A DNA stretch of 45,963 bases from Acholeplasmataceae bacterium (GTDB taxonomy: Bacteria; Bacillota_I; Bacilli_A; Acholeplasmatales; UBA5453). Every line of letters begins with the position of its first letter. Position 1 is the first letter of the stretch. The notes under the pieces were generated by a model. That model searched no databases and was not told the origin of the DNA. It saw only the letters and a list, made by a program, of their open reading frames with translations. A program made the translations under genes and the position numbers. Where the stretch lies: the NCBI GenBank assembly GCA_012837645.1, contig DUQU01000058.1, forward strand, positions 1 to 45,963, given 5' to 3'. Positions 32,064-45,705 of this stretch are shown piece by piece.

Positions 32064-32441
32064 CTATGGTAATTGAATTAAATTTTCTTCTAACGATAAG
32101 CCAGGGTTGGTATCATCTTTGTTGATTATGAAAATGATTTTACCTAGACTAATTTCTGAAGAGCTTTCTAACATTGAAAAATTGATTTCCAGTTGATACT
32201 TTTGAAAGCCAATCTCAGCACTAATGCTATCATATATTTGTCTTGTAGTATCGTTAACTATTTCATTTAAATCACTTTCGTTAGTGATGTTTTTTTCAAT
32301 TAAAACATCATAACTATAAATGTTTAGAAAAGAGTCGTGGCTTTTGTTGGTAATATTGACATCAACAGTCTTACTCTTATCCCCGCAGCCAACTAATAAA
32401 ACGGTTATTAGTAATAGTGAATATAACAATATTTTTTTCAT
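32064..32441 (-). CDS. Small lipoprotein, unknown
   Basis: This 125-residue protein has a signal peptide and lipobox LVGC (C19). The rest is a small beta/alpha domain of about 100 residues that I do not recognise. It overlaps pulA by ATGA and has AGGAGG upstream, so it is made together with the pullulanase. A surface helper role in glucan use is inferred only from that coupling. Confidence 0.75.
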   Translation of the reverse strand: MKKILLYSLLLITVLLVGCGDKSKTVDVNITNKSHDSFLNIYSYDVLIEKNITNESDLNEIVNDTTRQIYDSISAEIGFQKYQLEINFSMLESSSEISLGKIIFIINKDDTNPGLSLEENLIQLP

Positions 32442-35368
32442 GATAAGCCTCCTAAATTAACACGATATTTATTTCCCTTAACATGTAGTGTATAAGTAAC
32501 TAAGTGCTTTTTGTTGTTAAGGTCTTTTATTAAAACTGTAATAGTATAATAACCGGGAACGTTAACATCATAATAATGAGAAGATGTTAAAGTGTAGCCT
32601 TCTTCATTATAAACATTAATATTTTTAAGGGGATTAAAACTTGCTCCTTTTTCAATTGTGATTTCATTTTTTAAAGTGGCGATTGTAATTTCTTTACTCA
32701 AGATTTTTTCTACTAAAATAGCTGTTGTATTGCGCGGTACATAAAAGCTGCCGCTAACTGTTTCTAAGCCCATTAAATCATAGTCTTCAAATGTTGTTAG
32801 TAAGTGATATTCTTTATCTAAATCAACATTTATTAAAGAACTATTGCTATTAGCATGATGAACAACAACCACATCGCCAACACTGCTGTTTCCTGTTATC
32901 TTAAAAGCGATACTATTGGCGCTATCTGAAGTTGTTAAGAAAGTTAAATTAGTTAAAATATCATTAGCATTATTAATTCTAAATTGTGGGTAAGTTTTTC
33001 TAATTGCAATTAAGGCTTTATAGTAATTAAAGACATTAAGGTAATCTATTTTTCGGTCCCACCTTAATTGGTTAACGGAATCAGGTGATTCATATGAGTT
33101 TTCATCATAACCGCTGGAAAGTGGTTTAGAACGCATAAACTCTACCCCAGCATGTAAAAAGGGAATTCCTTGAGATGTTAGTGTAATCGCGTTAGCTTGG
33201 ACGACTAAATCTTGAGCTTTTGTTGGTGTAACTCCCGTTAATCTCAGCTTATCAAAAAGGGTATTATTATCGTGTGCGGAAACGTAATTAATCGTTTTAT
33301 TAGGATCTAAGTGCCATTTTGTAATATTGATATTAGGGTAATTGACACCTCCAACAATTCCATATTTGATTTTATTGATGATGTCTTGCGATGTTTCACC
33401 TTGAACCCATCCGGGTTCATCTTTTTGAAAGACAGAACCTTTAACAGCGTCTCTAAAATCATCATTAAAGGCGCCAACTTCTGTTAAATTTTTAATGTTG
33501 TTTTTCCCAGCAGCGAGACTTTCAGGAAGTGGGGTGTCACCGCCATCCCAAGGTTCGCCGTAAATGATAATAGTAGGGTCGATTTTTTTAAGTTCTTCAC
33601 TAATTAGGTTCATCGTTTCGATATCATGAAGAGCCATTAAATCAAACCGGAAGCCAGAGAGGTTATACTCTTTAGCCCAAAACAAGACTGAATCTAGGAT
33701 GAACTTTTGCATCATCTTTCTTTCTGAAGCGGTTTCGTTTCCGGTCCCAGAGCCATTAGAAAAAGTTCCATTTTCATTTAAACGATGATAATAACCAGGG
33801 ACGATTAAATTAAAATTGGAGTCTCCAGAAGGGCCGGTATGATTATAAACAACATCCATAATAATTCTTAAATTATTTTCACTATAAGTTTGGACGACTT
33901 CTTTAAATTCTTTAATGCGGGTTTTTCCATCGAAGGGATTAGAAGAATAAGAACCTTCTAAAGTATTGAAATTATAAGGCATGTAACCCCAATTAAAAAT
34001 TTTATTATAGTAAGGGTTATGAAAGACTTCAACTTCATCAACGTAGCCAAAATCAAAAATTGGTAGTAATTGGACTGCATTAACCCCTAACTCTAAAATG
34101 TGATCAAAACCGGTTGTAACAGTTTCGCCTCTTTTAGTATAAGTAGTATTAGTTTCTTGAAGGCCTAAAAATTTACCTCTGTTTTCTTCATTACCTGTCC
34201 AAGATTGATGAGTTGTTAAATCGCGAACATGAAGTTCATAAACGATATAATCGGTTAAGTTGGTAATAGTATTAGGTCTGTTATTGTATTGCCAGTTTTT
34301 GGGGTTTAAACTCTTAAAATCAACGATCATTCCTCTTAATCCATTAGCCCCGGTAGAATATGCATAAGGGTCGACGACTTCAGAAACAAGATCTCCATTA
34401 GTAACGGTATATGTATAATATTTAAAGAGATAATCTTTACTTAAAGTAATCTCCCAAGCACCATTTTCAATTTTTTCTAAAGAATAACTTTCATAGGGGG
34501 TTAATTCATCATTTTTTTCGCCTAAATCATCATAATTAGGATGTCCTTGTTGATAAAGATTAAGCTCAACTTGAGAGCTAATCGGAGCCCAAAGACGAAA
34601 AGTTATTTCATCCTCTGAGATGATTACTCCCAAATCACCTTCATAAGTAAAACTATTTTCAAATAAAGGTGTGTCATATAAATTTTGAATGGAAATTGCC
34701 TTTTCTGAAACTTGCTCATCATCAAAATAAACCTTTAAGACGTAACTCTTTTTAATATCCACTTCTTGATAGCTAAAGTTAAAGTTTTTTGAAGTGTTTA
34801 TCCCCTCATAGACTTTATTACTATTTTCATAGAGTTCATATTTCTGAGCAGCCTTTGTGAGACTAACGATAATTTTATTAGATTTATCAAAGTGGGCTGA
34901 TAGTATTTTATCGCGGTAATCAGGACGATTATTATTTAAATCATCGTTATTTACCCCAATGTTGATATCTCCTTCAACAATGTAAGCGTGAATTTTGCCA
35001 TCGACAACATCAGCGTTACTAAAGTCAATGTAGCGGTCGATTCCCTCAAATTCTCTCATGCCACCCCAACCACTGCCTTTTTTAACAATAATACCAACAA
35101 CATCAGAAGAACTATAATATCCCTCGCTTAAATCAATAGTAAAACTGGCACCATATTCGTCTATTTCAGTACTTTCAAAAGGGTGTTCCTTACCTTCTAA
35201 CGAAGAAGGCTTATAAGGCCAAACCCAAGCATTAAAACCGCTATAATTGTCATCATAACGGAAATAATGGACGACTAATTTAGTTGCTTTTTCAGTCTCT
35301 GCTTTAATAAAAAAGAGAAAAAAGAATGTTAGTGGTAAGATCAAAATACTAAGAAACACTTTTTTCAT
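32438..35368 (-). CDS. pulA: Secreted type I pullulanase (CBM41-CBM48-GH13)
   Basis: This 976-residue protein has a signal peptide (cleavage near residues 22-25), a CBM41/PUD starch-binding domain (about 30-135), a linker domain (about 140-235) and CBM48 (about 245-340). The GH13 barrel contains MDVVYNHTG, nucleophile D576 in GFRFDL, E605 in YGEPWDGG and D700 in SAHDNNT, plus the type I pullulanase NWGYMPYNF motif. A C-terminal Ig-like domain (about 890-970) completes it. It cleaves alpha-1,6 branches in starch, pullulan or glycogen outside the cell. No lipobox or wall anchor is seen. It is transcribed divergently from the starch-binding/malEFG operon. Confidence 0.95.
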   Translation of the reverse strand: MKKVFLSILILPLTFFFLFFIKAETEKATKLVVHYFRYDDNYSGFNAWVWPYKPSSLEGKEHPFESTEIDEYGASFTIDLSEGYYSSSDVVGIIVKKGSGWGGMREFEGIDRYIDFSNADVVDGKIHAYIVEGDINIGVNNDDLNNNRPDYRDKILSAHFDKSNKIIVSLTKAAQKYELYENSNKVYEGINTSKNFNFSYQEVDIKKSYVLKVYFDDEQVSEKAISIQNLYDTPLFENSFTYEGDLGVIISEDEITFRLWAPISSQVELNLYQQGHPNYDDLGEKNDELTPYESYSLEKIENGAWEITLSKDYLFKYYTYTVTNGDLVSEVVDPYAYSTGANGLRGMIVDFKSLNPKNWQYNNRPNTITNLTDYIVYELHVRDLTTHQSWTGNEENRGKFLGLQETNTTYTKRGETVTTGFDHILELGVNAVQLLPIFDFGYVDEVEVFHNPYYNKIFNWGYMPYNFNTLEGSYSSNPFDGKTRIKEFKEVVQTYSENNLRIIMDVVYNHTGPSGDSNFNLIVPGYYHRLNENGTFSNGSGTGNETASERKMMQKFILDSVLFWAKEYNLSGFRFDLMALHDIETMNLISEELKKIDPTIIIYGEPWDGGDTPLPESLAAGKNNIKNLTEVGAFNDDFRDAVKGSVFQKDEPGWVQGETSQDIINKIKYGIVGGVNYPNINITKWHLDPNKTINYVSAHDNNTLFDKLRLTGVTPTKAQDLVVQANAITLTSQGIPFLHAGVEFMRSKPLSSGYDENSYESPDSVNQLRWDRKIDYLNVFNYYKALIAIRKTYPQFRINNANDILTNLTFLTTSDSANSIAFKITGNSSVGDVVVVHHANSNSSLINVDLDKEYHLLTTFEDYDLMGLETVSGSFYVPRNTTAILVEKILSKEITIATLKNEITIEKGASFNPLKNINVYNEEGYTLTSSHYYDVNVPGYYTITVLIKDLNNKKHLVTYTLHVKGNKYRVNLGGLS

Positions 35369-35548
35369 TAAAAATCCCTCCTCTTAATAATTTTTACTTT
35401 CAATGTTATTATACATTATTTTATAATAATGAGAGCGATTACAAACTAAAACCGATACCACATTATGATAATCACCGAAAACGTTTACAAGGTTTCAGAG
35501 CTATGATATAATCAAATTACATTATGGAATAGAAAAAGGAGGAAAAAA
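35369..35548. promoter_or_regulatory. Divergent control region of pulA and the malEFG operon
   Basis: On the plus side, TTTACA (35484-35489) and TATAAT (35507-35512) are spaced by 17 bp. The palindrome AAACGTTT at 35479-35486, a LacI/MalR-type core, overlaps the -35 box. A related sequence, GCGATTACAA (35435-35444 region), may be a second, weaker site on the pulA side. For pulA a minus-strand TATAAT is seen at 35413-35408. This layout fits joint repression of both operons. Confidence 0.65.
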
Positions 35549-37390
35549 ATGAGAAAAATTTTACTTGCCTTATTAGTGTTTGCCGTTGGATTTACTTTAA
35601 CAGCAACACTTTATGGTGATGAGCCTGTCGGAACAGGCGATGTAGTCGTTCATTTTCATAAATGGGATGAAGATTACGAAGGTATCGGTGCTCATGCTTG
35701 GGGTTCAACTGCCGCAGCAATGCCGGAACCAACTGGTCGAGATGAATTTGGTATTTATTTTGAATTTAAAGATGTAGCGGTTGGGGCGGAAGTAGGCTTT
35801 ATCGCTGTTTATTTTAATGGTGAGGAGCCAGATTGGGATAGAAAGTTAACAGGGGATGTTAATATTGATCCCTCTGCAGTTGTTAAAGATGAAGTTACTC
35901 ACGTTTACGTTTTTGAAGGCGCAGAAACTAAAGAAGACGTGCCAGCGCATTATATTGCTAAAAAAGATGTGTATAACTTGCTTTTAGTATATGTGGATCC
36001 GGCTAATAATTATGAAGAAAACTTAGGTGTTTATGCTTGGGGCGGTTGGGACTTTGAGCCTCAATGGGGCACACCGGAAAAAGTATTTACTAATGGTGGT
36101 TCTCATTCCGCAGTAGCTGTAATAAAAGCCGGGATGTTATATTCGGAAAGCCCAGGGGCAGGACTGCTTATTTATGCTGGCGATGACGATACTAAGAAAA
36201 CAGGTGATGTTAAGTTAGATGTTGCTTTGGGTGAAGACCCAGAACTTGGCGATGTTGGCTTCGCATATGTGGTCAATAAAGGAGATGGCTATACAGTTGG
36301 AGATAATGTTTTTTATGATGCTACTGATTTTGCTGAGGAGGCATTTAAATTTAAATTAATGCCAATGCAGCTTGATGAACAAACTAGAGAAATTAAAGGT
36401 ACTTATGCTAAAGATCCAAAAACAGTTATGGTTAATATTAGTTCCCCTATTAAATCACCTTATTTAGCCGCAAAAGACAAAGAAGCAGCGAGAGAAATCA
36501 TTAAGAGTTGGTTTACCGTGCATGAAATACTAGGAGAAAATGAATTTGGGCCTAAAATTCCAATTGAAGATGTTCACTTTGCGGAATCTGCAGAAACATT
36601 AATTAATTTCGTTTTAATTTTAGAGAATCCGCTTGACAATGCAAAGGAATACGAAGTAATTTTTGATTCGTCAATGGTATTAGATGAAGTTGTAGCGACT
36701 TTGGTTTTCAATGTGACATTAGATAAACCTTTAGAAGAAGGACAACAAATTAATATCCCTGGTGGATTAAGCGGATGGGACCCTGCTCATAAAGATTTCG
36801 TGATGGAAAAGGTTGATGATTTAAACTATATTTTTGAGTTTGAAATAACCCTTAAAGAAGGAGAAAATTATCGGACAGAATATAAATATGTTAATGATGG
36901 AACTTGGGATGGGGAAGAAAGATTGACAGAAAATCGTTATGTAATTGTTGGAAGAAATGACATAGTAGATGGAAAGGTTAATATTTATGATGAAATAACA
37001 TTCGATCCAGAAAAAGATGAAAACGAACCTAACCACTTTAATGAACCATATATATCTCCTAATTATTATTCAAACTTAGTTTTAGATTTAGATCGAGAAG
37101 CTCCAGAGATAGTCTTTATTTCTCCATCAGGAATAGTAGGTAAAGAAGAAGCAGAAAGAATTATTATTGTTCCTTGGGGTAAGAAGTTTAATATGAATTT
37201 ATTCCCACGGTATGAAGCCCTTGATGATCGGGATGGAGATATTACGAGAGCGGTTTTTGTACCTAAAGGAGAATTTTCAATATTAGACACATCAGAAGTA
37301 GGCGATTATGTAATTATGCTTGAAGTTGAAGATGCTTGGGGTAATGTCACGCAAGAGAAATTTACCTTCAGGGTTCAAAAAGGTAAATAG
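35549..37390 (+). CDS. Secreted non-catalytic multi-domain starch-binding protein
   Basis: This 613-residue protein has a signal peptide (about 1-24) but no lipobox or C-terminal anchor. Residues about 30-125 form a CBM41/PUD domain closely resembling that of pulA (VVVHFHKWDEDYEGIGAHAW). A second PUD-like domain spans about 140-265 (YNLLLVYVDPANNYEENLG). A CBM20/CBM48-like domain follows at about 385-490 (INIPGGLSGWDPAHKDF). The C terminus is an Ig-like DUF5011 domain (about 520-612). No glycosidase motifs are present. It is the first gene of the malEFG operon. The likely role is to hold starch or maltodextrin near the membrane, comparable in concept to SusE/SusF; this is inference. Confidence 0.75.
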   Translation: MRKILLALLVFAVGFTLTATLYGDEPVGTGDVVVHFHKWDEDYEGIGAHAWGSTAAAMPEPTGRDEFGIYFEFKDVAVGAEVGFIAVYFNGEEPDWDRKLTGDVNIDPSAVVKDEVTHVYVFEGAETKEDVPAHYIAKKDVYNLLLVYVDPANNYEENLGVYAWGGWDFEPQWGTPEKVFTNGGSHSAVAVIKAGMLYSESPGAGLLIYAGDDDTKKTGDVKLDVALGEDPELGDVGFAYVVNKGDGYTVGDNVFYDATDFAEEAFKFKLMPMQLDEQTREIKGTYAKDPKTVMVNISSPIKSPYLAAKDKEAAREIIKSWFTVHEILGENEFGPKIPIEDVHFAESAETLINFVLILENPLDNAKEYEVIFDSSMVLDEVVATLVFNVTLDKPLEEGQQINIPGGLSGWDPAHKDFVMEKVDDLNYIFEFEITLKEGENYRTEYKYVNDGTWDGEERLTENRYVIVGRNDIVDGKVNIYDEITFDPEKDENEPNHFNEPYISPNYYSNLVLDLDREAPEIVFISPSGIVGKEEAERIIIVPWGKKFNMNLFPRYEALDDRDGDITRAVFVPKGEFSILDTSEVGDYVIMLEVEDAWGNVTQEKFTFRVQKGK

Positions 37391-37403: not shown

Positions 37404-38744
37404 ATGAAAAAATATTTAATACTTGTATTTACAATCTTATTAAGTTTTACTTTATTTGCTTGTGGGGATAAAACAGAAAACTTAGGTGAAGTGATTGATT
37501 TTAGTGAGACACATGGAAAGAAAACTGAATTAAGAGTTTGGTTAGATGATGAAAAAGGCGAATATATGGAAGCAATTATTAAAGAGTTTAATAAAATATA
37601 TCCAAATATTTATGTTAGGTTCCTTCATAAAGGTTCTGTTGAATCACGTGAACAATTAAAGACATTTGGACCTTCTGGTAATGGTGCCGATGTATTTCAA
37701 TTTCCGCATGACCATCTAGCACAAGCGATCTTAGAAGATTTAGTATTAGCTTTACCTAGCGATACAAAACAGAGAGTAGAAGCGAGATCACATGAACTAG
37801 GTGTTCAAATTGCTACTTTAAGTTATAATGAAGAAACACATTCTTTCGATCCCAATGATCCTAATGCAGTAGAATCATTGTATGCAGTTCCAATGTCAAT
37901 TGAGTCTGTAGGTTTATACTACAACAAAGATTTAGTTGAAACTCCAGCAGCGACTTATGAAGAATTATTTGCAGCTGCTGATATTTGGAATAATTCACCT
38001 TTTGGTGGAGATGAGAGTGGTAGAACAAATGCAGAAGCCAATAATTATTATTTAACGATTTCTAGTCATTGGGCTGATAGTTATTTTATGCAACACATTT
38101 ATTCTGCTTTTGGTTTTTATCCTTTTGGTGAAACATTAGATGATCCATCTGAGGTTGGTTTTGCTAATGCAGAGGAAGCGCTTGTATGGATGAGGGAAGA
38201 ATTAAAACCAAGAACAACCGGAAACGGTGATCATGAAAGTGTTGGCGGCGCTGGGTTTGAAGCTGGAGATGTTCCTTATATAATCGCAGGCCCATGGAAT
38301 AATGAAGCTTATAAAAATGCTGGTTTAAACTATGGAGTTGCACCACTACCGACTATAGACGGTAAAGAAACTAAATCATTTGCAGGAGCGATGATGGCCG
38401 CTGTTTATAAATATTCGAAGAATCAAGAAGCAGCGATTAAATTTGTTGAATTTTTAAGTTCTGATATTGCAATGCAACTTCAATATGACTATAAACAAAA
38501 ACTTCCAGCTTTAAAAGGAGAGTTATTAGTCAATATCGAAGGTGTTTTAGAAGATGAATTATTAATGGCGATGAGTAGACAATTAGAAACGTCAATTCCA
38601 ATGCCTACTATTCCTCAAGTTACCTATTATTGGGGACCAGGTGAAACAATGATTAAAGACACTTGGAATGGCGAAGAATTAATTTCAAAATTAGTTACTG
38701 ATGCTGAGCACTCATATCGCACGAATGTAGGATTAGGTCAATAG
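37404..38744 (+). CDS. malE: Maltodextrin-binding lipoprotein (MalE/MdxE-like)
   Basis: This 446-residue family 1 solute-binding protein has a lipobox FAC (C20). The pattern includes LRVWLDDEKGEYMEAIIKEF, the FPHDHL segment and the conserved VPMSIES and GAGFEAGDVPYIIAGPWN regions seen in maltose/maltodextrin binders. Anchored outside, it delivers maltodextrins to MalFG. It lies 13 bp after the starch-binding gene and has its own ribosome binding site, GGAGG. A strong hairpin separates it from malF. Confidence 0.92.
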   Translation: MKKYLILVFTILLSFTLFACGDKTENLGEVIDFSETHGKKTELRVWLDDEKGEYMEAIIKEFNKIYPNIYVRFLHKGSVESREQLKTFGPSGNGADVFQFPHDHLAQAILEDLVLALPSDTKQRVEARSHELGVQIATLSYNEETHSFDPNDPNAVESLYAVPMSIESVGLYYNKDLVETPAATYEELFAAADIWNNSPFGGDESGRTNAEANNYYLTISSHWADSYFMQHIYSAFGFYPFGETLDDPSEVGFANAEEALVWMREELKPRTTGNGDHESVGGAGFEAGDVPYIIAGPWNNEAYKNAGLNYGVAPLPTIDGKETKSFAGAMMAAVYKYSKNQEAAIKFVEFLSSDIAMQLQYDYKQKLPALKGELLVNIEGVLEDELLMAMSRQLETSIPMPTIPQVTYYWGPGETMIKDTWNGEELISKLVTDAEHSYRTNVGLGQ

Positions 38745-38753
38745 AAATAATGA

Positions 38754-38785
38754 GTAAGTGGCGGCAAATCTTTGCCGCCCTTGCT
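38754..38785 (+). repeat. Hairpin between malE and malF
   Basis: GGCGGCAAA (38760-38768) and TTTGCCGCC (38771-38779) are a perfect 9-bp inverted repeat, and outer arms AGTAAG/CTTGCT extend it. No T-run follows. It probably protects malE mRNA or lowers malF/malG levels, rather than ending transcription fully. Confidence 0.75.
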
Positions 38786-38807
38786 TCATATTAAGATGAG
38801 GAGAAAG

Positions 38808-41237
38808 ATGAAATTAAAAAGCATCTTAAAAGCTATTTTAAGTTTTTTTATTTGGGGGTTGGGGCAGCTTTTAAATAGACAATATTTAAAGGCGCTTTTC
38901 TTTTTTGCCGTTTTTGTATTATTTATTGGGATTGAATTAGGAACTAGTAAATACTTTTATAAAGAGGATTATGAGCATCAATTAGCTTATGAAAAAATCT
39001 CAGGTAATAATTTTGATGATGAATGGTATCATCATTTATTAGGCTATTACGTTAAACAATTTAGAGAAAATAATAAAACTTATCCCGCTTTTGAAGAGTA
39101 TTTAGTTTTAAATGATGTTAGCATTATTGAGATTGGTTCAGGAAGATTTACTTGGAGCGGTGAAGAAAATATTACTGAAGCTTCCTTTATTGAATGGTTA
39201 GCGAGCGATATTGAAAAAACTAGTCCAGAAACTTATACTAATATTATTACTGATGACGTTATAGAAAAAGATGAATTTTTAAATAATATTGTTGATTATA
39301 AACTTTTAAAAACTAAAGAAATAATTTACTATGACGAAGATAATGATATTTATTATTATGAAAATATCGGTCGTAGTATTGAAGAAGAAGAAAGAGAATA
39401 TATTGAAACGAATTTTTTTACTGAAAAAGAAAACCCTGCAATCATTAATAAGGTTACTGGTTTTTTAAAGTATGAAAAAAGTGGAGAAATATATCAGTAT
39501 AATGAAAAATATTATTTAAAAGTTAAAGTTAATGGTGACGACAAACTTGCCTTACTTAATTTGGATGTATTAAGCTTTATTGATTATCCAACTACACCGC
39601 CTTTGGCAGTTCAAAAGAACATTTATGGTCCACTTTATGGTAAAGGGGATGATTTTTTTGAGCATTATCGTCCTGGTTTGATTCATAATGGAGTACGCTT
39701 GCAATATAAAGAAACAGATTTTATGAAAATGTTTAGAACGGCGATGGTTACTACTTTTAACCTTCCTGGTAATGAATTTGACGGGACCGATTATACAAAA
39801 TTAATGATTAAAGTTTATTTCGGTTTAAATCCGGAAGTTAGAGAGGATTTTTTAGATGGTTATGATCATTTTTTCTATGATCGGGCTGGACTTTTTACTC
39901 GTGGCTATTGGGCAGTTTCAACCTTAGGTATAACCAAAAAGGTTGATTATCGTAGTTTTCATGCTCTTGATGATATTATGATTGGAACTGAAAAGGATGG
40001 AGTTAGTTCTTCATTAAAAGGATTAATTGCGATTTCTCCTAGCGTTCCTTTACAAGGTCATGTTTCCACGATGTTATTGTTAGAGGGATTAATTGGAGTA
40101 ATATTATCATTGTTTTTCTTTATCTTTTTATTTTGGTCGGTAAAAGATGCTTATGTAACATCAAATAGAAAAATTAAAAAAGAAGAAATAGAATCAGACC
40201 GTAAATATTTTAAAAATATTTGGGATAAAAGTTTTGAGTATATTGTTTTATCGCCAGCTTTATTTGTTTTAGCATTTATCTCTATTATGCCAATAGCCTT
40301 CGGTTTTATTATCGCTTTTACTAATATTAGTGGAAATGAATCGATGATGGATACTTTTGATTGGGTAGGGCTTAAAAACTTTGTTAAGATTTTTAATTTC
40401 GCTTCTGGTTTAGGCGATTCTTTTGGAAGAGCCTTTTGGAGAGTGTTGTCGTGGACGGTTGTTTGGGCGGTTTTTTCCACCTTTACGGTGTTTTTTGGTG
40501 GTTTTATTCAAGCTTTAATTTTAAATAGTGAAAAAGTTGTTTTTAGAAAATTATGGCGGACAATTTTAATTTTACCGTGGGCGATACCTGCTTTACTTTC
40601 ACAAATGGTATTTTCGGTAATGTTTAAAGAGAAGGGAGTTGTTAATCAACTTTTAAATTCAATTGGTATTTCTGATATTTTAAAAAATATTGGTATTTTA
40701 GGGAAGCCTTATCATTCGCTTTCTAAAGTGGCCCAATTCTTTTATTTAGGGCCAGAAAATATTCAGTGGTTTAGCAATCCTCATAATGCTACTTTTGTGA
40801 GAGCGACTTTGATTGTCGTTAATATTTGGTTGGGTTTTCCTTATTTTATGGCTTTGATGACTGGTGTTATGACAGCGATTGATAAAACGCTTTATGAAGC
40901 AGCGGATATTGATGGCGCGACTGGATTTCAAAAGATTACTAAAATTACGATGCCGTTAGTCCTTTACTCCACGGCACCGATTTTGATTATGACTTTTTCA
41001 GGTAACTTTAATAACTTTGGGGTGATCTATTTTATCACCGGGGGAGGGCCGAACACTGGTTCACCTCATCGAGGCTTTGCTGGTGATACTGATATTTTAA
41101 TATCGTGGATGTATAAACTAACGGTCGATTATAGTGTTTATAATATGGCTTCAGTTTTCTCGGTTTTAATCTTTTTCTTCGTCGGTTCAATAACGGCTTG
41201 GAATTTATCGAGAACAAGAGCTTTTCAGGAGGATTAA
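38808..41237 (+). CDS. malF: Maltodextrin ABC permease subunit MalF with large extracytoplasmic insert
   Basis: This 809-residue protein is much longer than usual MalF/MdxF proteins (about 430-515). After the first membrane region (about 8-45, with GLGQLLNRQYLKALFFF) comes a hydrophilic region of about 370 residues (48-418) that should lie outside. The permease core follows, with the EAA loop EAADIDGATG at about 697 that contacts the ATPase. E. coli MalF also has an outer P2 loop, but a smaller one. The ATG at 38808 with GAGGAG upstream is preferred over an earlier in-frame start at 38772 inside the hairpin. The downstream malG starts 2 bp after the stop. Confidence 0.9.
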   Translation: MKLKSILKAILSFFIWGLGQLLNRQYLKALFFFAVFVLFIGIELGTSKYFYKEDYEHQLAYEKISGNNFDDEWYHHLLGYYVKQFRENNKTYPAFEEYLVLNDVSIIEIGSGRFTWSGEENITEASFIEWLASDIEKTSPETYTNIITDDVIEKDEFLNNIVDYKLLKTKEIIYYDEDNDIYYYENIGRSIEEEEREYIETNFFTEKENPAIINKVTGFLKYEKSGEIYQYNEKYYLKVKVNGDDKLALLNLDVLSFIDYPTTPPLAVQKNIYGPLYGKGDDFFEHYRPGLIHNGVRLQYKETDFMKMFRTAMVTTFNLPGNEFDGTDYTKLMIKVYFGLNPEVREDFLDGYDHFFYDRAGLFTRGYWAVSTLGITKKVDYRSFHALDDIMIGTEKDGVSSSLKGLIAISPSVPLQGHVSTMLLLEGLIGVILSLFFFIFLFWSVKDAYVTSNRKIKKEEIESDRKYFKNIWDKSFEYIVLSPALFVLAFISIMPIAFGFIIAFTNISGNESMMDTFDWVGLKNFVKIFNFASGLGDSFGRAFWRVLSWTVVWAVFSTFTVFFGGFIQALILNSEKVVFRKLWRTILILPWAIPALLSQMVFSVMFKEKGVVNQLLNSIGISDILKNIGILGKPYHSLSKVAQFFYLGPENIQWFSNPHNATFVRATLIVVNIWLGFPYFMALMTGVMTAIDKTLYEAADIDGATGFQKITKITMPLVLYSTAPILIMTFSGNFNNFGVIYFITGGGPNTGSPHRGFAGDTDILISWMYKLTVDYSVYNMASVFSVLIFFFVGSITAWNLSRTRAFQED

Positions 41238-41239
41238 GA

Positions 41240-42625
41240 ATGGGATTATTAGCTTATTTTCTAATATTTTTAGCGCTTTTTATTGTCTTAGCAGTTTACT
41301 TTGTTAATGCTTTTATTTTAATGGATGTTTTAGAAAAAAAAGGCTATGAAAGCCATAAATATCGCCTAAAAGCTTTTATACCAATTTATGGCAACAAAGT
41401 TATTAAAAAACTTGATATTTTAAGCAAAGAAGTAAACGAATCGCATATTAACTATTTATATAAGCCTTATTATATTTACAGGAAAGCTTTAGTTGTAGTG
41501 TTGATTGAGTTTTTAGTGTTTTTACTGTTGATTCCGCTTTCGGTTATCTTTTATTTATCTTTTATTAATAATAAAATTTTAACAATGTTGATTAGTTTGT
41601 TAATTATTGTTGTTTATTTGGTTTATCAAGGTTCAGTAGCGGAATACGGTAGGAAAAAAGGTTATGAAGGGGTAAAATATGATTTAATGGCTTTGGTTCC
41701 TGTTGCTGGATTTTTCTATTTTAAAGCTAAAAAGCCTTTGAAGGAAACTTCTCGAGAAAGTTTAAAAAAGGTAATATCTTTAAAAAACATTTTAATGAGG
41801 TTTTTTATTAATGCTGAATTAACAATTATGGTTGTAATAGTTGTTTTACCAGTTTTATATATTTTTGGCATGGCTTTCTCTAATGTAAGAACGGATATTC
41901 CTAATACCTTGTGGCCTAAAAACCCTAACTTTCAAGCTTTTATCTTTTTAACAAAAGAAACTAACTTTTGGACTTGGTATCGTAATACCCTAGGGATTGC
42001 TGTTATTAATATGATTATTGGAACGATTATTATTACAGGAGCTTCCTATGTTTTTGCTCGTTATAGTTTTAAAGGTAAAAAAGCAGGGTTGTTAGCGATT
42101 TTAGTTTTACAAGCTTTTCCTTCTTTTATGGGTTTAATTGCGATGTATGTGTTGTTTTGGAAGTTTGGTTTATTAGGAAAGCCTCTGGCTCTTTCTATCT
42201 TATATATTGGTGGTAGTATTCCTGGTAATCTTTGGCTTATTAAAGGGTTTTTATCGCAAATACCTAAAGACTTAGATGAGTCAGCGATGATTGATGGGGC
42301 TTCTAAAGTAAAAATATTTACTTATATAATTTTACCGCTTGCCGTTCCAATTTTAACGTTTGTCGCGGTTTCGATGTTTATGGGTCCTTGGATGGATTAT
42401 ATGTTGCCGAGTTATTTATTAGATCATATGGTCGATGCGGGGGACGCTACTGATAGGTGGACTTTGGCTGTTGGTATTTATAAGTTTATTAATGATGCTA
42501 ATCATTTAAATTATTCAGCTTTTGCAGCGGCTTCATTAATTGTAGGAATACCGATTGCAGTTTTATATATGATTTTCCAAAAATACTTAATTGAAGGTAT
42601 TATGGCAGGTGCAACAAAAGGATAA
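41240..42625 (+). CDS. malG: Maltodextrin ABC permease subunit MalG with extra N-terminal membrane domain
   Basis: This 461-residue protein carries a typical MalG core of about 275 residues (from about 185), with EAA-type loop ESAMIDGASKVKIF. The first 185 residues are extra: about four membrane segments and two copies of a motif KKGYE-x2-KY-x-L-x-A-(I/V)-P-(I/V)-x-G, at about 33-52 and 138-157. I do not recognise this domain as a usual MalG part. The start is ATG 41240 after AGGAGG; the longer open frame overlaps malF without ribosome-binding support. No ATPase gene follows, so a shared MsmX/MalK ATPase elsewhere is expected. Confidence 0.9.
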   Translation: MGLLAYFLIFLALFIVLAVYFVNAFILMDVLEKKGYESHKYRLKAFIPIYGNKVIKKLDILSKEVNESHINYLYKPYYIYRKALVVVLIEFLVFLLLIPLSVIFYLSFINNKILTMLISLLIIVVYLVYQGSVAEYGRKKGYEGVKYDLMALVPVAGFFYFKAKKPLKETSRESLKKVISLKNILMRFFINAELTIMVVIVVLPVLYIFGMAFSNVRTDIPNTLWPKNPNFQAFIFLTKETNFWTWYRNTLGIAVINMIIGTIIITGASYVFARYSFKGKKAGLLAILVLQAFPSFMGLIAMYVLFWKFGLLGKPLALSILYIGGSIPGNLWLIKGFLSQIPKDLDESAMIDGASKVKIFTYIILPLAVPILTFVAVSMFMGPWMDYMLPSYLLDHMVDAGDATDRWTLAVGIYKFINDANHLNYSAFAAASLIVGIPIAVLYMIFQKYLIEGIMAGATKG

Positions 42626-42657
42626 AAAATAACCGCGGCTCATGGCTGCGGTTTTTT
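42624..42657. terminator. Bidirectional terminator between malG and the LacI-type gene
   Basis: AACCGC (42631-42636) and GCGGTT (42648-42653), with inner pairing and A/T runs on both sides, serve the two converging operons. Confidence 0.8.
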
Positions 42658-43624
42658 AATGTGAGGCTCTTAATACTAAGTTAACATCGATAACATCATG
42701 TAAGATTTCTAATTCAACACCTCTAATTAACTGATTAAGTTTTAAGAAACTTTGTTTTCCCATAAATTTAACTGATTGGTGGATAGAAGTTAGTTTAGGG
42801 GTAGTCCAATTGCAGAGAACAGAATCATCGTAACCGACTAAAGAAAGGTCTTTAGGAACGTCAATTTTTAGCTTTTTTAAAACATTTAAAGTCGCGAGAG
42901 CGAGAGTATCTGAAAAGCAAAAAATAGCATCAGTTTTATTATTAGTTATTAAAATTTGTTCGATTAAGTTTTCATCTGGAGAAAGAAGATCAAAATCAAA
43001 GATTTCAGCATAGAGATTCGCTTTCTTAATTACTTTTAAAAAGCCAATCGTTCTTTCTTCGGTGGTCAGTAAAAATGAAGGACCTCTGAAAACTATTAAG
43101 TTTTTTCTTTGTTGTTTTAAAAAAAGTTGAGCAGCAAGTTCTCCGCCTTTAATATTATTAGAAGTAATAGAAGGGATGTTTTCGTCTAAAATATGGTCAA
43201 CAGTAATAAGCGGTATTTTTAATTCTGCTAGTTTTTCATAATTGCTAAAATTAGAAGCGATAATGAGACCATCGATGTTGTATTGTTCAAAAAAGTGTAA
43301 ATATTCAATTTCTCGGTTAGGATCGTCATTAGTTTGGCAAAACAAAACTTTATATCCTGAAGCGAGTGCTTGAGATTCGATTCCTGCGATTAGTTCACCA
43401 TAAAAAGTAGCACCAACATGGGGGATAATGACACCAATTATTCTAGAAGAACCAGTAGTGAGGCTTCTTGCAAGTTGATTGGGGACGAATCCTAATTCAG
43501 CGATTACTTTTTCGACTACTTTTCTAGTTGATTCGTGGACGTATCCTTTATTGTTTATTACTCTTGAGACGGTTGAAACGGATACGTTTGCTTTTTTGGC
43601 AACATCTCTTATTGTTGGTTTCAT
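42656..43624 (-). CDS. LacI-family transcriptional regulator (MalR-like)
   Basis: This 322-residue protein has an N-terminal LacI helix-turn-helix (TIRDVAKKANVSVSTVSRVI), hinge helix ARSLTT and a periplasmic-binding-type effector domain (IIGVIIPHVGATFYGELIAG onwards). I start it at ATG 43624 (MKPTIRDV) with AAAGGAGC 7 bp upstream; the longer frame begins too close to the expected transcript start. Its place after malEFG makes it the likely regulator of the glucan genes, sensing maltose or maltodextrin. A CcpA role is less likely because CcpA-specific features cannot be confirmed. Confidence 0.9.
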   Translation of the reverse strand: MKPTIRDVAKKANVSVSTVSRVINNKGYVHESTRKVVEKVIAELGFVPNQLARSLTTGSSRIIGVIIPHVGATFYGELIAGIESQALASGYKVLFCQTNDDPNREIEYLHFFEQYNIDGLIIASNFSNYEKLAELKIPLITVDHILDENIPSITSNNIKGGELAAQLFLKQQRKNLIVFRGPSFLLTTEERTIGFLKVIKKANLYAEIFDFDLLSPDENLIEQILITNNKTDAIFCFSDTLALATLNVLKKLKIDVPKDLSLVGYDDSVLCNWTTPKLTSIHQSVKFMGKQSFLKLNQLIRGVELEILHDVIDVNLVLRASH

Positions 43625-43652
43625 AGTTTTAGCTCCTTTGGAATTCATGTTT

Positions 43653-43875: not shown

Positions 43876-45705
43876 ATGTATATTGAAAATGCGATTAATA
43901 ATGGAACCCGCTATCTTAGATTAGTTGAAGGGTATAGAGGTCCTAATAAAGATGGAAAAATGGTTTCTAAAAAGAAAATTATTTATAATATTGGTCCTCT
44001 TTCTAGATTCGATGATGGTAAACCTAATTACCTACTTAGACTAAGAGAGTCTTTTAGAAATGGTAATCCTTTAATTAAAGAACTCGCTAAATATTGTGAG
44101 TCAAAACCTATTTATGAAAAATATGATATTGAGTTTTCCGAAAACGACCCTTTTTGTATTGGTGAACCTAAAATATATTCTCATATTTTAATCGAGCGGA
44201 TATTAGAGGAGTTAGGTTTAATTACTTTTTTTAGGCAATATAAACAATTTACTAATATTAAATTTGATTTAACAGGTTTTTTTAGATTATTAGTTTACGG
44301 AAGAATTCTTAATCCCCAGTCTAAGATTGCTACTGTTTATCAAAACGATAACTATTATAACCCCATCTTAAAAGAGAGGTTTTATAAGTTTAATGTTTAT
44401 GATACTCTAGATTTTATTAATAATCATCATTTTCAAATAGTTAATAAAATCCATAATCAAATGACATCTTCCTTTGGAAGAACTACTAATACTATTTTTT
44501 ATGACTGCACTAACTTGTTTTTTCATATTGATGAACCTGATGATGACCTAGAAATAGATGATAAACTTGTCAAAGGTGTAAGGAAAAATGGCGTTAGTAA
44601 AGAAGATCGTAAACTTCCTTTAATTCAAATGGGGTTATTTATCGATGAACAAGGCGTACCTATCGCTATTGAAACTTTTCCTGGTAACACACTAGATCAT
44701 TTAACCGTTATTAATTCGCTTAATAATCAAATCGATAACTTAGAACTTAAAAGATTTATTTTTGTTGGCGATAGGGGAATGTATAACGGTAAAAATGCTC
44801 ACTATTTAGCTAATAAAAATCATGGTTATATTATGGCTAAAAGTATTAATAAATCTAATGCTAAAGAAAAAGAATGGATTTATGATAATAATGATTATAT
44901 TAGCCTTAATCCTAATTTTAAATATAAATCTAAAGTTGTTAAAAGGGCTGTTACTGGTTGTAATGGTGAAAAGGTTAAAATTGTTGAAAAAAATGTTGTT
45001 TACTGGTCCTTAAAATTCTACCAACGTCAAGTAAAAGAAAATCAGTCTTTTTTAGCTTTTATTGAAAAGTTAAAAGAAAATCCTACTTCTTTTAAAATAT
45101 CTAAAACTGAATCTAAAAACATTAAAAAACTTCTTAAAGATGAGTTTTTAAATAATTTAACCGGTGAAATAATTGATTCAAAAGATTTATTGCCAATGAT
45201 TGATGAAGATAAAGTTAATAAGTATGTTAAATCTTTTGGTTATTATCAACTAGTTACTTCAGAAGTTGAAATGGATGATTTAGAAATAATTGAAACTTAT
45301 AAAGGCTTATCTAAAATTGAAAATCAATTTAGAATCTTAAAGGGTAACTTAGATGCTAGACCACTTTTTGTTAGAACCGAAGAACACATGAGAGCTCACC
45401 TACTTATTTGTATGATTGCGCTTGTTGTTATGAGGATTATTCAAAATAAAGTGCTTGATTATAAAGTCAAAAATGGCTTTAAATCAGAAAGAAGTTGGCA
45501 AATGGGAATAAATGGTGAAAGACTACAAAGGGCTTTAAATGATTGGACGATTGACGCTATTAGTGATGAATATTATAGATTTAATAATATTAATAAAAAA
45601 GATTTAAAACTTATCTTAGATGCTTTTGATATTGAAATACCCGTCAAATTATATAAAAAAGGTGAACTAAGATCCTTAAAATCAAAAATTAAAATTATAA
45701 CATAG
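43876..45705 (+). CDS. DDE transposase, IS1634 family
   Basis: This 609-residue transposase belongs to the IS1634 group of the IS4 superfamily. The N-terminal RYLRLVEGYR and KIIYNIGPLSRF are typical. The catalytic acids are visible: first D in TIFYDCTNLFF, second D in FVGDRGMYN and E in YKGLSKIENQFRILK, which also fits the Y-(2)R-(3)E-(6)K signature region apart from K replacing R. The frame is uninterrupted, so the element may be active. It lies divergently from the LacI-type gene. Confidence 0.93.
   Translation: MYIENAINNGTRYLRLVEGYRGPNKDGKMVSKKKIIYNIGPLSRFDDGKPNYLLRLRESFRNGNPLIKELAKYCESKPIYEKYDIEFSENDPFCIGEPKIYSHILIERILEELGLITFFRQYKQFTNIKFDLTGFFRLLVYGRILNPQSKIATVYQNDNYYNPILKERFYKFNVYDTLDFINNHHFQIVNKIHNQMTSSFGRTTNTIFYDCTNLFFHIDEPDDDLEIDDKLVKGVRKNGVSKEDRKLPLIQMGLFIDEQGVPIAIETFPGNTLDHLTVINSLNNQIDNLELKRFIFVGDRGMYNGKNAHYLANKNHGYIMAKSINKSNAKEKEWIYDNNDYISLNPNFKYKSKVVKRAVTGCNGEKVKIVEKNVVYWSLKFYQRQVKENQSFLAFIEKLKENPTSFKISKTESKNIKKLLKDEFLNNLTGEIIDSKDLLPMIDEDKVNKYVKSFGYYQLVTSEVEMDDLEIIETYKGLSKIENQFRILKGNLDARPLFVRTEEHMRAHLLICMIALVVMRIIQNKVLDYKVKNGFKSERSWQMGINGERLQRALNDWTIDAISDEYYRFNNINKKDLKLILDAFDIEIPVKLYKKGELRSLKSKIKIIT

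Follow-up and report, generated by a model that had tools for sequence, protein, structure and literature searches.

A predicted alpha-glucan-binding protein without an enzyme domain at the head of a maltodextrin importer operon in wall-less bacteria

Dedicated proteins that capture starch without cutting it are known from Bacteroides, as SusE and SusF of the outer membrane, and from Ruminococcus bromii, as part of the amylosome. Could a bacterium with no wall and a single membrane have one too, and what would keep it at the cell? The window, by which we mean the whole 45,963-nucleotide stretch of DNA analysed here (contig DUQU01000058.1, Acholeplasmataceae assembly GCA_012837645.1), belongs to just such a wall-less, single-membrane lineage and raises the question through one gene (Table 1). 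We call its predicted product the CBM protein. Our answer, to which we give a probability of roughly 0.65, is that the CBM protein is a surface glucan-capture partner of the MalEFG importer; its binding of glucan, its part in uptake, its retention at the cell and its docking are what we infer. If true, such a protein, built on CBM41 and linked to an ABC importer, would be a simple single-membrane model for coupling substrate capture to import. The arrangement spans wall-less bacteria, the culturable Acholeplasma laidlawii among them.

On this reading the CBM protein would be exported by way of its signal peptide. Its tandem CBM41s would bind alpha-glucans of the starch or glycogen type, with an X25/CBM20-like module adding to this in some species, and the substrate would be kept beside the divergently encoded pullulanase and the co-expressed MalE-MalFG importer. 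A C-terminal TM segment would have fixed the ancestral protein to the membrane and would later have been lost in the Acholeplasmatales lineage. Retention there would most likely be non-covalent, perhaps by docking of the Ig-like domain near MalE/MalFG; failing that, the protein would be released.

Table 1. Features of the locus, in positions of the window.
Feature	Position	Strand	Remarks
Small lipoprotein	32064..32441	-	overlaps pulA end; proposed pulA partner
pulA, divergent	32438..35368	-	CBM41 + CBM48 + GH13; Ig-like tail in place of TM
LacI/cre-type palindromic sites	35430..35489 (at 35430, 35447, 35476)	.	in divergent promoter
Extended -10 promoter, TTTACA-17-TATAAT	35484..35512	+	top promoter-like match in region; 11/12 positions, with TG
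CBM protein (non-catalytic, alpha-glucan-binding), predicted	35549..37390	+	613 aa; modules, orthologs, AlphaFold
Signal peptide of CBM protein	35549..35629	+	no lipobox Cys; lowest conservation of all segments (34%)
CBM41/PUD module 1	35636..35929	+	aa 30-127; Pfam PF03714
CBM41/PUD module 2, divergent	35975..36232	+	aa 143-228; ortholog segments and structure match
Beta-rich module	36335..36682	+	aa 263-378; AlphaFold secondary structure; no Pfam match
X25/CBM20-like module	36692..36964	+	aa 382-472; sub-threshold
C-terminal Ig-like domain	37073..37381	+	aa 509-611; top conservation (63%)
malE, maltodextrin-binding lipoprotein	37404..38744	+	domain searches
malF	38772..41237	+	roughly 390-aa extracytoplasmic loop
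malG	41198..42625	+	extended at N-terminus
Terminator-like hairpin ending CBM-malEFG	42631..42653	+	3' of malG

Modules of the CBM protein

The open reading frame starts with ATG, has AGGAGG just 5' of it and is no chance ORF, full-length orthologs with 43-51% identity being found in several genera. A sequence-only reading of the window had proposed two PUD/CBM41-like domains, a CBM20/48-like domain and an Ig-like domain. The first CBM41 stands well above the Pfam cut-off (PUD, PF03714, residues 32-127, 1.5e-13, 51.9 bits against 25). The second is sub-threshold in the window protein, at 16.3 bits against the same cut-off; its orthologous segments match PUD in 7 of 12 cases (best 2.1e-4), and the AlphaFold model matches structures of CBM41 tandems. 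The CBM20/48-like domain likewise falls below the curated cut-off in the window protein, where X25 scores 20.1 bits and would need 27. Its orthologous segments match X25_BaPul_like in 9 of 13 cases (best 4.4e-4) and CBM_20 in 3 of 13 (best 5.5e-5). Shorter orthologs, of ~480-515 aa, lack this module. Profile searches with module 2 and with the X25-like module against PDB sequences returned no starch-binding match. The Ig-like domain matches Bact_surface_Ig-like at residues 539-603 (9.2e-5), under the gathering score, and is matched in 15 of 19 orthologs. To this list we add the beta-rich module at residues 263-378, for which searches with the window protein and with orthologs gave no Pfam family.

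The AlphaFold model (mean pLDDT 82, pTM 0.59) is confident for both CBM41s, the module that follows them and most of the C-terminal domain, and poor between residues 380 and 500, the X25/CBM20-like module having a pLDDT of roughly 52-80. Its best PDB matches are SpuA (2ya1, 8e-10), the streptococcal tandem CBM41s 2j43 and 2j44, the Thermotoga CBM41 2j71 and other pullulanases. Kept in both CBM41s are the platform Trp and the basic and acidic residues (W51 and K99; the W164/W165 region, K216 and D220) that would, by comparison with the Thermotoga CBM41 structure, be ligand contacts. CBM41-1 has His49 at the position of a second Trp in many CBM41s, and this may lower its affinity.

What the protein does not contain is an enzyme: Pfam gave no glycosidase family, GH13 included, and NCBIfam no match of any kind. 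Model and domain searches thus agree with the earlier reading that a protein of carbohydrate-binding fold, here CBM41, has no glycosidase catalytic domain. The architecture varies among relatives. The 726-aa version of A. granularum (L080, 10001-12181) carries an aBig_2 Ig domain as an insertion, as well as a CBM20-like module within the middle module. In two of the other families reached by a class-wide search, the protein has two pairs of CBM41 and a doubled length of about 800-830 aa.

Gene order, co-occurrence and regulation

How closely does the CBM protein keep company with the importer? Our set comprised 61 genomes, the window's own and 60 relatives of the same order. The CBM protein found matches in 22 of them, a count that includes one false relative, G001, which we rejected as an ortholog: the match is a lipoprotein (L088, 83-1270) that resembles the window's X25/CBM20-like module at its N-terminus only and continues into an unrelated, possibly esterase-like region. 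A divergent copy of the CBM gene in G008 was located by position. Close MalE (E <= 1e-40) occurs in 23 of the 61 genomes, and 22 of these 23 have the CBM gene; in the remaining one, G011, the contig ends at malE. The CBM gene never occurs without MalE in the 61 genomes.

The gene map bears out the position first proposed, ahead of malE and divergent from a CBM41 pullulanase. Divergent pulA followed by CBM-malE-malF-malG recurs in the loci of 20 relatives; G002 is without pulA, and a few loci are cut by contig ends. The order is also found in named loci of A. laidlawii, A. oculi, A. granularum, A. equifetale, Haploplasma modicum and Peloplasma aerotolerans and in many MAGs, so that the suggestion to look for it in Acholeplasma-like genomes was borne out across Acholeplasmatales and beyond. 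In some Acholeplasma species, pulA and the CBM gene are separated by an RDD-DUF1189 gene pair. A class-wide search traced the arrangement into other families, and an Izemoplasmatales MAG (L084) shows it as well. Divergent pulA adjoins CBM-malEFG in nearly every locus; it was not found at L043 and L083 and is co-directional at L133. Genome contigs scanned with an alignment yielded 35 loci, and with a single protein none. Two loci of the window's own family, L050 (G009) and L086 (G008), hold a mal operon that has diverged from the others (MalE 30-35% identical) and encodes a TM-anchored CBM protein, a pattern which suggests that horizontal transfer replaced the operon there.

The pullulanase and the CBM protein share a divergent promoter region of 180 bp. 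LacI/cre-type sites occur in all 23 divergent promoters checked, at 11.9 per kb against 0.53 per kb in the remaining locus sequence, a density that speaks for joint control of pulA and CBM-malEFG. A candidate regulator acting at these sites is encoded at 42656-43648 by a gene of the LacI family; beside that gene, close to the contig end, lies a DDE transposase gene (43876-45705). The gap between malE and malF (38750-38790) holds a strong hairpin (-24.1 kcal/mol, z -6.4), which perhaps sets malE expression above that of malF. Both the linkage to malEFG and the shared operator sites are conserved, as befits a protein that works as an accessory of the mal operon.

The tandem CBM41s of SpuA bind glycogen, and the model's structural match to SpuA invites a different story: an adhesin that attaches to glycogen of a host or to starch of plants and has no part in feeding, or else a decayed pullulanase that has shed its catalytic domain. 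We hold this to be the least probable of the alternatives, since the gene is found in free-living, environmental and commensal lineages and always in the mal operon, its product is intact and conserved class-wide, and a separate, intact pullulanase adjoins it.

Likeness to known systems

The proposal of a single-membrane counterpart to SusE/SusF gains from the non-catalytic glucan-binding architecture, from the linkage to malEFG and a pullulanase, and from the X25 module type, which is that of SusE and SusF (PMC9112005). Like them, the CBM protein is a non-catalytic multi-module protein, predicted to bind starch and encoded with an importer, X25 being shared at a sub-threshold level. Unlike them, it belongs to a single-membrane cell and has no lipobox Cys, whereas SusE and SusF are outer-membrane lipoproteins; it has at most one weak X25-like module, with CBM41 as the main type, where theirs are tandem X25; and its neighbours are the malEFG ABC importer and pulA, not the TonB-dependent SusCD. 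Sas20 of the R. bromii amylosome is also an exported starch-binder without an enzyme domain from a Gram-positive-related lineage, but it joins its scaffold through a dockerin, and Pfam finds neither dockerin nor cohesin in the CBM protein. Sas20 has two starch-binding domains, of which one is X25-type, and no CBM41. The best reading is that the CBM protein would work like SusE/SusF or Sas20 yet belong to neither.

SpuA and other CBM41 pullulanases share the tandem N-terminal CBM41 and give the best fold match, but the CBM protein is without their GH13, and the pullulanase here is the adjacent pulA. The importer itself has homologs of MalE, MalF and MalG of E. coli MalEFGK2, and the MalF core matches E. 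coli MalF; what differs is the extra CBM protein heading the operon, the enlarged MalF and MalG, and a MalE that is a lipoprotein. Environmental Tenericutes have pulA widely and probably take up sugars by ABC-type transport, according to the portion of PMC7301438 drawn on here, which does not mention the CBM protein. Our literature search, of incomplete coverage, returned no paper describing it, and the main text of A. laidlawii vesicle proteome papers mentions neither maltose, starch nor pullulanase.

How the CBM protein may stay at the cell

The first reading saw no anchor, and we agree: the signal peptide of the window protein is without a lipobox Cys, and there is no C-terminal TM segment. 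The same holds for the Acholeplasmatales clade, in which TM is absent from 41 of 41 non-duplicate readable C-termini, all ending at or just past the Ig-like domain. Outside the clade, 19 of 19 operon-borne relatives end in a hydrophobic segment and a basic tail, a count that takes in G008 and G009, of the window's family but with the divergent operon version. Membrane association of the family thereby gains support. The simplest history would be an anchored ancestor and one loss of TM, if the root lies among the anchored outgroups (as drawn, it is the midpoint).

A freely diffusible secreted protein, coating or loosening starch or glycogen in the medium together with a released pullulanase and never attached to the cell, would explain the absence of TM and lipobox in those 41 orthologs; most of them have a signal peptide that looks cleavable, and signal peptidase I is encoded. 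We nonetheless think this rather unlikely, given the strict one-to-one linkage to the importer, the TM-anchored orthologs at the same operon position elsewhere, and a pullulanase that, in the same lineage, appears to retain a lipoprotein partner. An uncleaved signal peptide, one of the anchors first suggested, is improbable. The signal peptide of the window protein (..LTATLYG/DEP) indeed offers no good A-x-A site and is among the 8 of 37 without such a motif, but 29 of the 37 ortholog signal peptides have an A-x-A-like one, signal peptidase I is present, and this segment is conserved least, at 34% against 48% for the CBM41s and 63% for the Ig domain in the ortholog alignment.

The small lipoprotein beside pulA was the other suggestion. 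Lipoproteins of this family (loci L031-L082) lie directly 3' of pulA, only where pulA is without a TM tail. In 34 non-duplicate loci pulA has an Ig-like tail and is followed within a few bases by an ORF that encodes a lipoprotein (roughly 110-190 aa); in 17, pulA has a TM end and no lipoprotein after it; there are no mixed cases. This tally omits L053, where pulA is cut, and L140, where the pullulanases bear their own lipobox at the N-terminus and malE is not adjacent, and its counts are not independent: the evidence is three coupled changes on the MalF tree, along which the tail state of pulA switches three times. Two switches fall inside Acholeplasmatales, in G036 (L041/L072) and in L061; each has a TM-tailed pulA, no lipoprotein and a CBM protein that is tail-less still. 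The lipoprotein is therefore best read as the partner of pulA, and putatively as its membrane anchor. That it holds the CBM protein is very improbable, even though it is confined to the lineage whose CBM protein is without TM, because its presence tracks the pulA tail exactly. This coupling of TM-tail loss in the pullulanase with gain of a downstream lipoprotein makes replacement of a membrane anchor directly testable.

For the CBM protein as capture partner of the importer, non-covalent retention leaves docking to MalE, MalF or MalG as a possible route. Conservation of the Ig domain would be compatible with its touching another protein close to the membrane. We had considered that this domain is conserved because TM was lost, an idea weakened by the TM-anchored relatives, in which it is again best conserved (59% against about 47%); conservation is thus no specific mark of docking after TM loss. 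The MalF model has convincing PDB matches for its core alone (E. coli MalF 4ki0, 3fh6) and no clear fold match for the ~390-aa extracytoplasmic region, so it supports no docking claim. The start of malF is more likely at ~38808, as ortholog alignment favours, than at the listed TTG, which is probably too early. More tentatively, the CBM protein may form a permanent part of the maltodextrin ABC importer at the cell surface, with CBM41 arms that hold the polymer and an Ig-like domain docked on MalE/MalFG; Acholeplasmatales would then have swapped TM for protein-protein anchoring, pulA by the lipoprotein and the CBM protein by the importer.

At loci L123-L132 the CBM protein and pulA both end in Cys-containing TM tails finishing in Arg/Lys. 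A few tails weakly resemble MYXO-CTERM and GVDTG-CTERM sorting signals, below cut-off, and a sorting system in these wall-less lineages is possible.
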